Shown piece after piece: positions 22,918-28,539 of a DNA stretch of 64,000 nucleotides (its first letter is position 1; every line of letters starts with the position of its first letter). The notes beneath the pieces are model-generated. The model was not told the DNA's origin and made no database searches. It saw only the letters and a program-made list of their open reading frames with translations. Location: NCBI GenBank assembly GCA_937138415.1, contig CAKZPA010000037.1:1-64000 (forward strand). The letters run 5' to 3'. Position numbers and translations under genes: made by a program. Source of the DNA: an uncultured Nitrospiraceae bacterium. Lineage in GTDB: Bacteria; Nitrospirota; Thermodesulfovibrionia; Thermodesulfovibrionales; SM23-35.

Positions 22918-24180
22918 ATGCCCTTATTCGGTGAACTGTTCGTCAGCGAACTGCTCAAGAAACCCGTCCTCGACCCGCTGGGTGAGGAACTGGGAAAAGT
23001 GCGAGACATGATGATGATCAAGGGAGATCCCTTCCCGAAAGTATCCGGTCTCATCGTCGAGAAAAGACGGAAGAATTACGTCATGCCGTGGGAGGAACTG
23101 AACATATTCAACAAGAGGATCATCTCTGCGAAGATCTACGGCGACCGGCTCCGTCCCTACGATTACAACGAGACGGATCTCCTCATCGTGAGGGACATCT
23201 TCGACAAGCAGATCGTGGACGCGAACGGCGCGAAAGTGGTCAGAGTCAACGATGTGAAGCTCGAGGGATTCGATTCGGAAGCCATTCTCGTGGCTGTGGA
23301 TGTCGGTATGCGCGGCATCATGCGAAGGTTGGGCATAGAGCGAGGCGGCGAGGATATGCTGCGGCTTTTCAGGAAGCATCTCCCCTACAACCTCATCAGT
23401 TGGAACTACATCCAGCCGCTCGAGCCGAAGTTGACCACGATATCGCTCACTGTCCCGCGGCAGATGGTATCGGAGCTTCACCCGGCGGACATCGCGGACA
23501 TCATCAGTCAGGTCTCCCGCAAAGAAGGGGCGTCGCTCTTCAAGGAACTCGACGTCGAAACGGCCGCCGAAGCTCTCTCCGAATTGGAGCCGGACGTCCA
23601 GACGGCCATTATAACGACCATGGATACGCCGAGAGCCGCGGACATCATAGAGGAGATGCCTCCCGATGAAGCGGCGGATGTGCTGAGCGACCTTCCGGTC
23701 GATAAAGCCAAGGAGATCCTCGAGCAGATCGACAGGGATGACGCCGAGGACATCCAGGAGCTCCTCGGCCACGAGGAAGATACGGCGGGCGGTCTGATGA
23801 CGAACGAGTTTATTGCGTATCCGCCGGAACTGCTCGTCAGCGAAGCCCTTGAGCGGTTCAAGAAAGACGCCACGGAGGTCGAGGCTGTGTACTATCTCTA
23901 CGTCACCGATGCCGACGATAAAATCAAAGGCGTCGTATCCTTGCGCGACCTTCTCCTCGCGCCGCTCGATGCGAGACTCGCCGATATCATGAAGACGAAG
24001 CTCAAGATTGTCTCCCCCGATGCAGACGAAATCGAAGTCGCCGAAATCGTGTCGAAATACAACCTGGTGGCTATCCCCGTCGTCGACAACCAGGGATATT
24101 TGCTCGGCATCGTCACGGTCGATGACATCCTCGACCGTGTCCTCCCACCCACAGCAAAGCGGAAACGGAGGAAGGTGTGA
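22918..24180 (+). CDS. PRC-barrel-like + MgtE N-terminal + CBS-pair protein lacking a membrane domain
   Basis: A 420-residue soluble protein. Residues 1-85 resemble a PRC-barrel module (VLDPLGEELGKVRDM). Residues ~185-285 form the superhelical MgtE intracellular N domain (LHPADIADIISQVSRKEGAS, EEMPPDEAADVLSDL). Two CBS motifs follow (TAGGLMTNEFIAYPPELLV and the block ending VTVDDILDRVLPP). The Mg-channel membrane domain of MgtE is absent. Its stop overlaps the GTG start of the Nramp gene, so it probably gates or senses metal for that transporter (inference). Confidence 0.85.
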   Translation: MPLFGELFVSELLKKPVLDPLGEELGKVRDMMMIKGDPFPKVSGLIVEKRRKNYVMPWEELNIFNKRIISAKIYGDRLRPYDYNETDLLIVRDIFDKQIVDANGAKVVRVNDVKLEGFDSEAILVAVDVGMRGIMRRLGIERGGEDMLRLFRKHLPYNLISWNYIQPLEPKLTTISLTVPRQMVSELHPADIADIISQVSRKEGASLFKELDVETAAEALSELEPDVQTAIITTMDTPRAADIIEEMPPDEAADVLSDLPVDKAKEILEQIDRDDAEDIQELLGHEEDTAGGLMTNEFIAYPPELLVSEALERFKKDATEVEAVYYLYVTDADDKIKGVVSLRDLLLAPLDARLADIMKTKLKIVSPDADEIEVAEIVSKYNLVAIPVVDNQGYLLGIVTVDDILDRVLPPTAKRKRRKV

Positions 24181-25412
24181 GCCTCTGGCGACGATTCGTC
24201 ATTTTTCTGTCGATTATGGGTCCCGGCGTTATCACCGCAAATATCGACAACGACGCGAGCGGTATTACGACCTATTCCGTCTGCGGAGCGCGTTTCGGCT
24301 ATGCGCTCCTCTGGACCCTGATCCCGACCACGATCGCCCTCATCGTCATCCAGGAGATGGTTGCGAGGATGGGAGCGGTGACCGGAAAAGGACTTTCCGA
24401 TCTCATTCGGGAGCAGTACGGTGTCAGATCGACGTTCTACATGATGACCATTCTCTTCGTCGCGAACTTCGGCACGACCGTGGCGAACTTCGCCGGATGG
24501 GCAGCCAGCATGGAGATCCTCGGCTTCAGCAAGTACGTCATGGCGCCGCTCGGGGCTGTCTTCATCTGGTTCCTCGTTGTCCGGGGGAATTATCGCTCCG
24601 TCGAGCGCATTCTCCTCGCCGCCTGCCTTCTCTATTTCGGCTACGTCCTGTCGGGTATCATGGCGAAACCCGACTGGGGAGCCGTCTCCTCGGCGACGTT
24701 CGTGCCCCGCATCCAGTGGGACTCGGAGTACATCATCCTCTGCATCGCGATTATCGGCACGACGATCACGCCGTGGATGCAATTCTACCTGCAGTCATCG
24801 ATCGCCGAGAAAGGCATAAAAAAGGAAGACTACAAGGCATCCCGCCTCGATGTCTTCATCGGATGCAGCATTACAGATATCGTGTCGTTCTTCATCATCG
24901 TTACTTGTGCCACGACCCTCTTTCCGCTCGGCATCCGAATCAATGAAGCCCATGAAGCTGCGCTCGCTCTCAAACCGCTCGCGGGAGACTACGCGTTTCT
25001 CATTTTCGCCGTCTGTCTCGCGAATGCGTCGCTCCTCGGGGCGATTATCGTGCCGCTCGCAACCTCGTACTATATCTGTGAGGCGATGGGGTGGGAACGC
25101 GGCGTCAACAAGACATTCAGCGAGGCCCCTCAGTTCATGTGGATCTACACGTTCATGATCGTCACGGCAGTGATCGTCATCCTCATCCCGAAGGCACCGC
25201 TTGTCTTTCTGATGGTCCTCTCCTCGATTTTGAACGGAATTCTCCTCCCGTTCGTGCTCGTCTACGCGCTCTCACTCGTCAATGACAGAAAGATCATGGG
25301 CAATTACGTGAATTCGAAATTCTACAATGTCATATCGTGGGCGACGATCGGATCGATCGCCGCACTTGCTATCGTTTTCGTCTTTGCGGCGGCGCTACCG
25401 ATAGGGGACTGA
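24177..25412 (+). CDS. Nramp-family divalent metal transporter
   Basis: A 411-residue membrane protein with about eleven hydrophobic segments and Nramp-type architecture. The first helix break reads NIDNDASGITTY where classical Nramps have DPGN; the sixth-helix site reads TTITPWMQFY instead of MPH. This places it in the divergent Nramp-like group, whose ion may be other than Mn/Fe (for example Mg). It starts at GTG 24177, overlapping the upstream stop (GTGTGA), so the two genes are translationally coupled. mtnA follows after 1 bp. Confidence 0.87.
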   Translation: MSLWRRFVIFLSIMGPGVITANIDNDASGITTYSVCGARFGYALLWTLIPTTIALIVIQEMVARMGAVTGKGLSDLIREQYGVRSTFYMMTILFVANFGTTVANFAGWAASMEILGFSKYVMAPLGAVFIWFLVVRGNYRSVERILLAACLLYFGYVLSGIMAKPDWGAVSSATFVPRIQWDSEYIILCIAIIGTTITPWMQFYLQSSIAEKGIKKEDYKASRLDVFIGCSITDIVSFFIIVTCATTLFPLGIRINEAHEAALALKPLAGDYAFLIFAVCLANASLLGAIIVPLATSYYICEAMGWERGVNKTFSEAPQFMWIYTFMIVTAVIVILIPKAPLVFLMVLSSILNGILLPFVLVYALSLVNDRKIMGNYVNSKFYNVISWATIGSIAALAIVFVFAAALPIGD

Positions 25413-25413
25413 C

Positions 25414-26475
25414 ATGGTGCGTTCGATAGACTGGGTCGACGGGAAGGTCGTCATTCTCGATCAGACGAAGCTCCCGTTCGATGTGAGCTATATTCCGTGT
25501 GATGATTACCGTACGGTCGCGGAGTGCATTCGAACACTCCGCGTCCGCGGGGCTCCCGCGATCGGTATTGCGGCGGCGATGGGTATCGCTCTCGCCTGTC
25601 AAAACGTAACGGCACGAACCTATCGGCAGTTGCGCAGCGCGCTCGAACCAGTGTTCGGAGAGATGCTTTCGACTCGACCGACTGCCGTCAATATCCGCTG
25701 GGCTGTCGAGCGGATGAAACGGCTCCTCTCGAATCACCGTCACCTACCCGTAGAGGATCTGAAAGAACTCGCCATCGAGGAGTCTCGGCGGATACGCGAT
25801 GAAGATATCGCCGTGAACAGGGCGATCGGTCAATGGGGCGCCCAGTTTATCAAGGACGGGGATACCATTCTGACGCACTGCAACGCGGGCTCGCTCGCGA
25901 CCGGTGGTTACGGGACGGCGACGGCGCCGTTGCTCGTCGCCCGCGATCAGGGGAAGAGGATCCGGGTCATCGCGAGCGAGACGAGGCCGTTGCTCCAGGG
26001 AGCGCGTCTCACCGCTTGGGAACTCGCTCAGGAAGAAATCCCGGTGAGCATCGTCACGGACAATTCGGCGGGCTGGCTTCTCCACAGAGGGGAAATAGAC
26101 CTCGTCATCGTCGGGACGGATCGAACGGTCAGAAACGGAGATGTCGCAAACAAGATCGGGACCTACTCGCTCGCGGTCCTCTGCCGGGAAAACAAGGTCC
26201 CGTTCTACGTCGCGGCTCCGCTGAGCAGCATCGATTTCTCGATCCCGTCGGGCGAGCACATTCCCCTCGAGGAGAGAAGCCCCGAGGAAGTGACGACCGT
26301 CCTTGGACGCTGTCCCATCGCACCACCCGGGGTCCCTGCTCGGAACATCGCGTTCGACGTGACCCCCCACCGGTACATCACGGCGATCATCACCGAGCGG
26401 GGGGCGTTCCGACCGAAAGACATAAAGAAATTGGCGCGGAGCGTGCCCGTCGACGACATACGCATGAGGGCATGA
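25414..26475 (+). CDS. mtnA: S-methyl-5-thioribose-1-phosphate isomerase
   Basis: A 353-residue aldose-ketose isomerase of methionine salvage. The substrate-binding block VRGAPAIGIAAAMG, the catalytic Cys in LTHCNAGSLATGGYGTA, and the later VGTDR aspartate are visible. No other methionine salvage gene lies nearby. It begins 1 bp after the Nramp stop, so it belongs to the same transcript. Confidence 0.93.
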   Translation: MVRSIDWVDGKVVILDQTKLPFDVSYIPCDDYRTVAECIRTLRVRGAPAIGIAAAMGIALACQNVTARTYRQLRSALEPVFGEMLSTRPTAVNIRWAVERMKRLLSNHRHLPVEDLKELAIEESRRIRDEDIAVNRAIGQWGAQFIKDGDTILTHCNAGSLATGGYGTATAPLLVARDQGKRIRVIASETRPLLQGARLTAWELAQEEIPVSIVTDNSAGWLLHRGEIDLVIVGTDRTVRNGDVANKIGTYSLAVLCRENKVPFYVAAPLSSIDFSIPSGEHIPLEERSPEEVTTVLGRCPIAPPGVPARNIAFDVTPHRYITAIITERGAFRPKDIKKLARSVPVDDIRMRA

Positions 26476-26501
26476 GCACGGCTCCCGGACCGCCTCGTCG
26501 C

Positions 26502-26531
26502 TTGACATTCCCCAAAACGCTACACTACCAT
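26502..26531 (+). promoter_or_regulatory. Candidate promoter of the polyprenyl synthase gene
   Basis: TTGACA (26502-26507) and TACCAT (26526-26531), spacer 18 nt. The -10 ends 5 nt before the GTG start and no ribosome site is present. Confidence 0.45.
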
Positions 26532-26536
26532 TAACA

Positions 26537-27508
26537 GTGGATTTGGACGATATTTTCAAACAGTACGAGGCCGATCTCGGGAGCACGGAGGACCGGATAC
26601 GAGATCTCTTTCGGAGCTCCGCGTCGACGATCTCGCTTATCGGCAATCACATCCTCGATGGCGGCGGGAAGAGGCTGAGGCCGCTCATCCTCCTGCTCAG
26701 CGCGGAAATCGCGGGCTTCAGAGGGGACGCACGCCTGACGCTCGCGGCCATCGTCGAATCCATTCACACGGCATCTCTCCTCCACGACGACGTCGTCGAT
26801 GGCGCCGATATTCGCAGGGGAAAAATTCCTGCGCACAAGGTGTGGGGAAATCAGGTCGTTATCCTCGTCGGCGATTTTCTCTATTCGAATGCCCTCAGAC
26901 TTGCCGTCCAGCAGAAGAGCCAGCGCATCATGGAGGCTCTCTCGGATGCGACGACGCGAATGACCGAGGGGGAACTTCTCCAGCTGTCGCGCACGGGCGA
27001 TCCCGGCATCACCGAAGACGAGTACATGGCTATCATATCGGCCAAGACCGCGGCGCTGATTTCAGCCGCCTGCCGTATCGGCGCAATCCTCGGCTCGCTG
27101 CCGGAAGAGAAGGAATGCGCGCTCGCAACCTATGGGAAAAATGTGGGGATGGCATTCCAAATGACAGACGATATCCTCGACTACGTCGCGGACGAAGGCA
27201 GTCTCGGCAAACGGTTGGGGAAGGATCTGAGGGAAGGAAAGATAACGCTCCCGCTCATCCTCCTCCTCAAAACCGCCGACGCTTCCGAAAGAGAGGCGGT
27301 CAGGCAAATCGTCCAGAGCGGCTTTACGAAGACCGGCCTGAAACGCATTCTTCGTTTATTCGAGAGGTACGGTACCATCGGGCAGTCGCTCGAAAGGGCC
27401 CGGCAGCTCATCGAGAGCGCGAAGGATCAGCTCGCCGTCTTTCCGGATTCGCCCGCGAAGTATGCTCTCTCCCGGATCGCCGACTATTCCCTGTCGAGGA
27501 ACAGGTGA
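26537..27508 (+). CDS. Polyprenyl diphosphate synthase (octaprenyl type)
   Basis: A 323-residue trans-prenyltransferase that elongates isoprenoid chains, probably for the quinone side chain. The first Asp-rich motif is LLHDDVVDGADIRRG and the second is MTDDILDYVAD; GGKRLRP is the substrate-binding block. It begins at GTG 26537 with the conserved MDLDDIFKQYE. Product length cannot be read. AMMECR1 starts 0 bp after its stop. Confidence 0.92.
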   Translation: MDLDDIFKQYEADLGSTEDRIRDLFRSSASTISLIGNHILDGGGKRLRPLILLLSAEIAGFRGDARLTLAAIVESIHTASLLHDDVVDGADIRRGKIPAHKVWGNQVVILVGDFLYSNALRLAVQQKSQRIMEALSDATTRMTEGELLQLSRTGDPGITEDEYMAIISAKTAALISAACRIGAILGSLPEEKECALATYGKNVGMAFQMTDDILDYVADEGSLGKRLGKDLREGKITLPLILLLKTADASEREAVRQIVQSGFTKTGLKRILRLFERYGTIGQSLERARQLIESAKDQLAVFPDSPAKYALSRIADYSLSRNR

Positions 27509-28015
27509 ATGCACCCCCTCGTCGAACTCGCGAAGCGGAGTGTCGAGGCCTACATCACACGGAGGGAGACGATCGGCCTCCTGGAGGACGTCCCCGAATG
27601 CATGACAGGTAAAGCCGGGGTTTTCGTGTGCATCAAGAAACACGGGCGGCTGAGGGGATGTATCGGCACCTTCCAGCCGACGCGCGAGTGTGTCGGTCTC
27701 GAGACGATCGCGAATGCGATCTCCGCTGCCACAGAGGATCCCCGGTTCCCCCCCGTGTCGGAGAAGGAACTGCCGGAGCTGAGTTATTCCGTCGATGTGC
27801 TCTCTCCACCGGAGAAGGTCTCCGACGTATCGGAACTCGACCCGAAAAAATACGGTGTCATCGTCGTGAGTGGATTCAGGCGGGGACTCCTGCTGCCCGA
27901 CCTCGAAGGTGTCGACACGGTCGAGGAGCAGCTCAACATCGCAAAGATGAAAGCCGGCATTGCTCCGCACGAGGACGTCGAGATGTACCGTTTCGAAGTG
28001 CGGCGCTACACATAG
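27509..28015 (+). CDS. AMMECR1-domain protein
   Basis: A 168-residue AMMECR1-family protein. The signature [10 protein letters not shown], plus [21 protein letters not shown], is present. Family members are often called AmmeMemoRadiSam system protein A; biochemical function is unknown. It starts immediately after the prenyltransferase stop (TGAATG). Its partner genes (MEMO and radical SAM) are not in this window. It converges with moaC. Confidence 0.9.
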
Positions 28016-28062
28016 GACGGATCGTTCACGCACACGGGCCGTCGAGCATTCTATCTCCGGAC

Positions 28063-28539
28063 CTACGATCTCTTGTACGTACCGCTCAGGCCACCCCGTT
28101 TTTCCACGAGGACGATGTCGGAGATTGCCATCTCCTTGTCGATTGCTTTGCACATATCGTAAATGGTGAGCGCTGCAACGGAAACCGCCGTCAACGCTTC
28201 CATCTCGACGCCGGTCTGCCCCGCGACCTTCACGCTCGACTCGATATCGATCTTCCCTTTTTTCTCGTCGATCGTGAAGTCGACCGTAACCGATGCGATG
28301 GCGAGCGGATGGCAGAGGGGAATGAGATCGCTCGTTTTTTTTGCCGCCATAATGCCGGCGATGCGTGCCACGCTGAAGACGTCACCTTTCGGGACCGTCT
28401 TTTCCTGGATCATGGCGAGCGTCTCGGGCTTCATCGAAATGGATCCGCGGGCGACCGCGAACCGCTCACTCGCTTCCTTCCCGCTGATATCGACCATCCG
28501 TGCCCTTCCCTGCTCGTCGACGTGAGAAAGTTTTTTCAT
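28063..28539 (-). CDS. moaC: Cyclic pyranopterin monophosphate synthase
   Basis: A 158-residue MoaC acting in the first steps of molybdenum cofactor synthesis. Conserved blocks [32 protein letters not shown] (quoted in part) and [10 protein letters not shown] are present. Its ATG lies 14 nt after the encoded CCA of tRNA-Leu, with the ribosome site AGAGGGA abutting the tRNA end. No other mo- genes are in the window. Confidence 0.96.

Follow-up and report, generated by a model that had tools for sequence, protein, structure and literature searches.

A soluble PRC-MgtE_N-CBS protein paired with an NRMT-type transporter in a Nitrospiraceae genome, a candidate detached Mg2+ gate

The window (a stretch of 64,000 nucleotides from an uncultured Nitrospiraceae bacterium) encoded two overlapping genes at 22918-25412, and both open reading frames were found at the positions given by the original prediction. 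The first gene encodes a soluble protein, referred to here as the sensor, and the second an Nramp-type transporter. The features of the locus were as follows:

22918..24180, + strand: soluble sensor gene (420 aa) with PRC head, MgtE_N, CBS pair and basic tail
22930..23124, + strand: PRC-barrel domain, residues 5-69 (PF05239, E 2e-7; beta strands 6-71 in the model)
23170..23328, + strand: putative second PRC-like beta unit, residues 85-137 (from model strands 98-129 and conservation)
23476..23781, + strand: MgtE_N domain, residues 187-288 (Pfam E 7.6e-29; ligand equivalents E218, D250, D254)
23803..24141, + strand: CBS pair, residues 296-408 (ligand equivalents D403, D406)
24142..24177, + strand: conserved basic C-terminal tail LPPTAKRKRRKV, at the position held by the plug helix in MgtE
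24177..24180, + strand: stop/start overlap of the sensor and Nramp genes, GTGA (4 nt)
24177..25412, + strand: NRMT-type Nramp transporter gene (411 aa, GTG start)
24252..24263, + strand: TM1 metal-site motif D26-A-S-G29 (DxxG), aligned to D55/G58 of 7qia
24759..24770, + strand: TM6 metal-site motif T195-T-I-T198 (TxxT), aligned to T224/A227 of 7qia
25414..28539, no strand assigned: downstream block of mtnA, polyprenyl synthase, AMMECR1 and moaC, named by sequence resemblance

A Shine-Dalgarno-like GGAGG run was located at 24167-24171, ahead of the Nramp start. Such a run together with a gene overlap is a usual sign of translational coupling.

Pfam assigned PRC, MgtE_N and CBS domains to the sensor, with CBS in two stretches (E 5.7e-20). 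Pfam found no MgtE membrane domain (PF01769) in the protein, and the chain ended in LPPTAKRKRRKV, with no plug helix. The sensor was, as originally predicted, a separate soluble MgtE-N/CBS protein with a PRC-like head. Against the TIGR00400 mgtE model it scored 180.6 bits, below the cutoff of 232.75, and the match spanned only positions 21-251 of 450, i.e., the cytosolic half. An AlphaFold model contained two head beta units, a helical MgtE_N repeat, a CBS pair and a low-confidence tail, and its best PDB matches were the cytosolic domains of MgtE; because of a pTM of 0.41 and a mean pLDDT of 74.8, the placement of the domains in this model is not to be trusted. The second PRC-like unit was strongly conserved (DKQIVDANGAKVVRVND) and gave a weak fold match to CdpB1/CdpB2 (8qzo), which we take to be PRC proteins. 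Nearly all related sensors terminated in a basic tail of the type LPPAAKRKRRKV, where MgtE has its plug helix. Like MgtE (TIGR00400; PDB 2zy9, 2yvy), the window sensor has MgtE_N and CBS domains with Mg2+-ligand acids; unlike MgtE, it is a separate chain with neither pore nor plug helix and with an added PRC head and basic tail.

The Mg2+-site residues of MgtE, as defined in PMC5882242, were located in the sensor by alignment to Thermus MgtE. Residues E59, D91, D95, D247 and D250 of MgtE corresponded to E218, D250, D254, D403 and D406 of the sensor, and the equivalent of D226 was Asn. These ligand equivalents were near-invariant in the sensor family, with D250, D254 and D403 invariant across 48 aligned sensors. 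The plug-helix ligands E258 and D259 were missing along with the helix itself. The Phe of the MgtE ATP site was Leu in the sensor and likewise in 12 of 17 full-length MgtEs; loss of the ATP site was thus rejected as a sensor-specific trait, the same change being present in the majority of the full-length MgtEs of the phylum.

The second open reading frame had the Nramp fold (PF01566, E 8.1e-98). Its best PDB match was 7qia (EleNRMT, E 1.7e-103), named as an NRMT structure in PMC9606685, and its best MntH match had an E-value of 3.4e-28. The original prediction of a divergent Nramp holds for the fold, and on these matches the protein is better named an NRMT. The NRMT signature is DxxG-TxxA/T, replacing DxxN and A/CxxM (PMC8806188). 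The window protein carried DxxG-TxxT, and the Asp and Gly of the TM1 motif were invariant in 30 homologues. The two alpha-6b histidine positions of proton-coupled Nramps, whose loss is an NRMT trait (PMC8806188), were W200 and L205. The TM10 Gln that matters for EleNRMT (Q379; PMC8806188) was S350 in the window protein; among 25 type-1 relatives this position was Ser in 13, Ala in five and Gln in seven. The Gln is common to other Nramps and so is not NRMT-specific. By its sequence the transporter is an NRMT, the Mg2+ branch of SLC11.

The pair may instead handle Mn2+ (or Fe2+), the Nramp being a Mn2+ importer and the sensor reading Mn2+, which we consider unlikely. The NrmT of Acidobacterium capsulatum, encoded beside an MgtE-like fragment, acted like a Mn2+ importer: rescue was complete in a Mn2+-import mutant and only weak for Mg2+ (PMC4072509), and EleNRMT carries Mn2+ besides Mg2+ (PMC8806188). 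The missing M-box in the window and the Ser at the TM10 Gln position also fit Mn2+. Against it, the DxxG-TxxT metal site is without the Met that favors transition metals, and the Mg2+ transporter content of the genome points the same way.

The source genome, 2.1 Mb in size and with a listed completeness of 100%, contained one MgtE_N protein and one Nramp. Profile searches of this genome found no MgtE membrane domain (PF01769), no CorA and no second MgtE_N; a full-length MgtE partner encoded elsewhere, which would have spoken against the original prediction, was thus looked for genome-wide without a match. Because MgtE and CorA are absent, the genome would otherwise be missing a Mg2+ importer, and this absence argues against the Mn2+ reading. 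One CNNM/CorB-type protein was present. No P-type ATPase scored above the MgtA cutoff in the genome; the best candidate for a Mg2+ P-type ATPase scored better against Ca2+ or Na/K-type pumps, with all scores below cutoffs, and was rejected. A defence-system search gave no match.

Across 198 genomes of the phylum, the MgtE membrane domain occurred in two of the 66 genomes with an NRMT pair vs 77 of the 132 others (Fisher p 5e-16, uncorrected for shared ancestry; p 0.057 within the class). Neither MgtE nor CorA was found in 32 of the 66 NRMT genomes. CorA was discarded as a complementary transporter, its presence being unassociated with NRMT in the same 198 genomes.

The conserved neighborhood that the original prediction had proposed to look for was found. 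The 198-genome sample yielded 70 type-1 sensor loci, and an Nramp lay directly downstream of the sensor in 63 of these, with spacings of -1 to 520 nt and many overlapping genes. Among 80 named GTDB loci, nearly all titled Nitrospirota, an Nramp adjoined the sensor in 73. Sensors of a second type, distant at about 30% identity, had the opposite order, Nramp then sensor, in five of five loci (L045, L046, L047, L048 and L060), and this type also included a Citrobacter plasmid locus (L177). In type-2 sensors the D91 equivalent was Ala and the D250 equivalent mostly Asn, so their metal site may differ.

On plasmids, an Nramp was beside the sensor in nine of 12 inspected loci from Bacillota, Actinomycetota and Pseudomonadota. 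An annotated Nramp or divalent-metal transporter flanked the sensor on plasmids of Alicyclobacillus, Cellulomonas, Citrobacter, Arthrobacter, Mycolicibacterium, Rhodococcus, Leifsonia and Pseudarthrobacter, and on a Streptomyces clavuligerus plasmid the neighboring Nramp was recognized by sequence match. No Nramp was present in the stretch read around the sensor in the Nocardia and Nonomuraea plasmid loci. On a Tsukamurella plasmid (L179:2501-4314), a PRC-MgtE_N-CBS-like gene overlapped a DUF1003 gene with no Nramp nearby; sensors of this kind may have a further partner in the DUF1003 protein. MgtC/SapB family genes were close to the sensor-Nramp pair on two Actinomycetota plasmids (L181, L183). 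An M-box Mg2+ riboswitch was located upstream of the pair on the Alicyclobacillus and Arthrobacter plasmids (L173, L178); scans of the window and of a set of Nitrospirota loci gave none. An upstream M-box is a trait of a subset of NRMTs and does not define them.

Four loci (L110, L112, L130, L136) held orphan sensors, whose tail was shortened and which were not followed by an Nramp; in the genome of the last (G196), an NRMT-like Nramp was located on another contig. Three apparent exceptions in gene structure were rejected. A split sensor in G150 (L056/L057) was treated as an assembly artefact, both pieces ending in N runs; a split sensor in G109 (L051) looked like a frameshift in one genome; and an 890-aa Nramp frame in G111, a candidate fusion, proved to read through the sensor gene in an alternative frame.

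The adjacency could be an evolutionary leftover with no functional coupling, as the sensors that stand alone and the Tsukamurella sensor beside a DUF1003 gene might suggest. The 63 of 70 and 73 of 80 adjacent loci, in two gene orders and several phyla, make this very improbable, as do the fusion genomes described below, which are without a complete Nramp.

The pairing of sensor and NRMT has been known since 2014 and is widespread. Shin et al. (PMC4072509) described NrmT with an MgtE-like fragment, a homologue of the MgtE cytosolic domain, as a common neighbor, together with M-box control, and speculated on feedback regulation by the fragment. The window pair resembles these systems (NrmT, PMC4072509; EleNRMT, 7qia, PMC8806188) in placing an Nramp fold with DxxG-TxxA/T beside a soluble homologue of the MgtE cytosolic domain. 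It differs from the NRMT systems described in having no M-box and in the change of the TM10 Gln to Ser, and its PRC head is unmentioned in the NRMT papers found. Two results of that study speak against gating: the NrmTs of Clostridium acetobutylicum transport Mg2+ without a sensor, and rescue by the A. capsulatum NrmT was no better when its sensor was expressed alongside (PMC4072509).

The sensor may not be a gate at all: it could aid the folding or assembly of NRMT, or act as a cytosolic metal buffer or chaperone. Chaperone activity was named as an alternative by Shin et al. (PMC4072509), the PRC head is an added domain without counterpart in MgtE, and orphan sensors exist. On the other side, the same domains gate the pore in full-length MgtE, and the acids that bridge the N and CBS domains through Mg2+ are kept here. 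That the same sensor also occurs fused to an MgtE pore, complete with plug helix, fits a gate better, and we regard a folding or buffering role as somewhat less probable still than Mn2+ handling.

Such natural fusions, with the architecture PRC-MgtE_N-CBS-MgtE, were found in five genomes (G142, G289, G208, G214 and G207), at loci L123:3481-5484 (G289:C77), L049, L169, L170 and L171. The G142 fusion, a 609-aa frame, came from the phylum search and the other four from a class search; that of G207 was partial, cut at a contig end. The sensor part of the fusions was homologous to the window sensor over its whole length and 57-66% identical to it, G207 holding part only. The fusions formed one clade (support 100/99) nested within the NRMT-paired sensors, and a tree holding them with ordinary MgtE was rejected (p-AU 0.005). 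Where free sensors have the basic tail, the fused proteins carried a plug-helix-like EATED segment. Compared with the window pair, the fusions have the MgtE channel domain and a plug helix, and no complete Nramp gene was found in any of the five genomes; as these are 80-97% complete, a copy may have been missed in one or two of them.

The G289 fusion was located at the syntenic nrmT locus, with the same genes 3' as after the window pair (the block at 25414..28539). A 51-codon relic of an Nramp C-terminus directly followed the fusion and matched the congeners G104 and G126 at 94-96% identity. At the DNA level the flanks of this locus were mostly 89-92% identical to these congeners, vs 74-76% for the sensor part. 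This is most simply read as the arrival of a fused allele that took the place of both sensor and NRMT at this locus. Genetically, the replacement of the pair by a fusion strongly supports a function of the pair equivalent to that of MgtE, short of proving gating, and the fusions are good evidence that sensor and transporter work together. It also counts against Mn2+ handling, as an MgtE channel has taken the place of the Nramp there. Relative to published work, both the fusions and this replacement are apparently new: no later study of the sensor, the PRC head or the fusions was found in the literature searched, which was covered in part.

Taken together, and with a probability of roughly 0.66, the two genes are read as a Mg2+ uptake system whose NRMT is throttled by the sensor when cytosolic Mg2+ goes up. 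NRMT would let Mg2+ in, probably without proton coupling. The soluble protein would be a detached MgtE-type gate: cytosolic Mg2+ would be bound at its MgtE_N/CBS interface, the sensor would close up as Mg2+ rises, and the closed form would hold back NRMT from the cytoplasmic side. Docking on NRMT probably falls to the PRC head and the basic tail, which would stand in for the covalent plug helix of MgtE. We infer Mg2+ as the physiological substrate, as well as contact between sensor and NRMT, the direction of regulation and physical gating.

The original prediction proposed that a Mg2+-sensing gate had been reused for a different transporter fold. Adjacency, the kept ligands, the avoidance of MgtE and re-fusion at the same locus give good support to the separation of the sensing module and its coupling to another fold. 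As the partner itself belongs to a branch of Mg2+ transporters, no change of substrate is required, and the idea of a feedback gate was published in 2014 (PMC4072509). A more general proposal, to which we give slightly less than an even chance, is that PRC-MgtE_N-CBS is a portable Mg2+ gate for two unrelated membrane folds, acting on the NRMT carrier in trans and, once fused, on an MgtE channel in cis, with the pair and the fusion as interchangeable alleles of one locus serving a single function.

The 2014 work did not settle what the MgtE-like fragment does next to an NRMT. If the sensor is a detachable gate, a LeuT-fold carrier would be regulated by the gating module of a channel, and Mg2+ uptake by NRMT would gain the feedback that is built into MgtE and CorA. 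The fused relatives are ready-made constructs for studying one sensor on two transporter folds.
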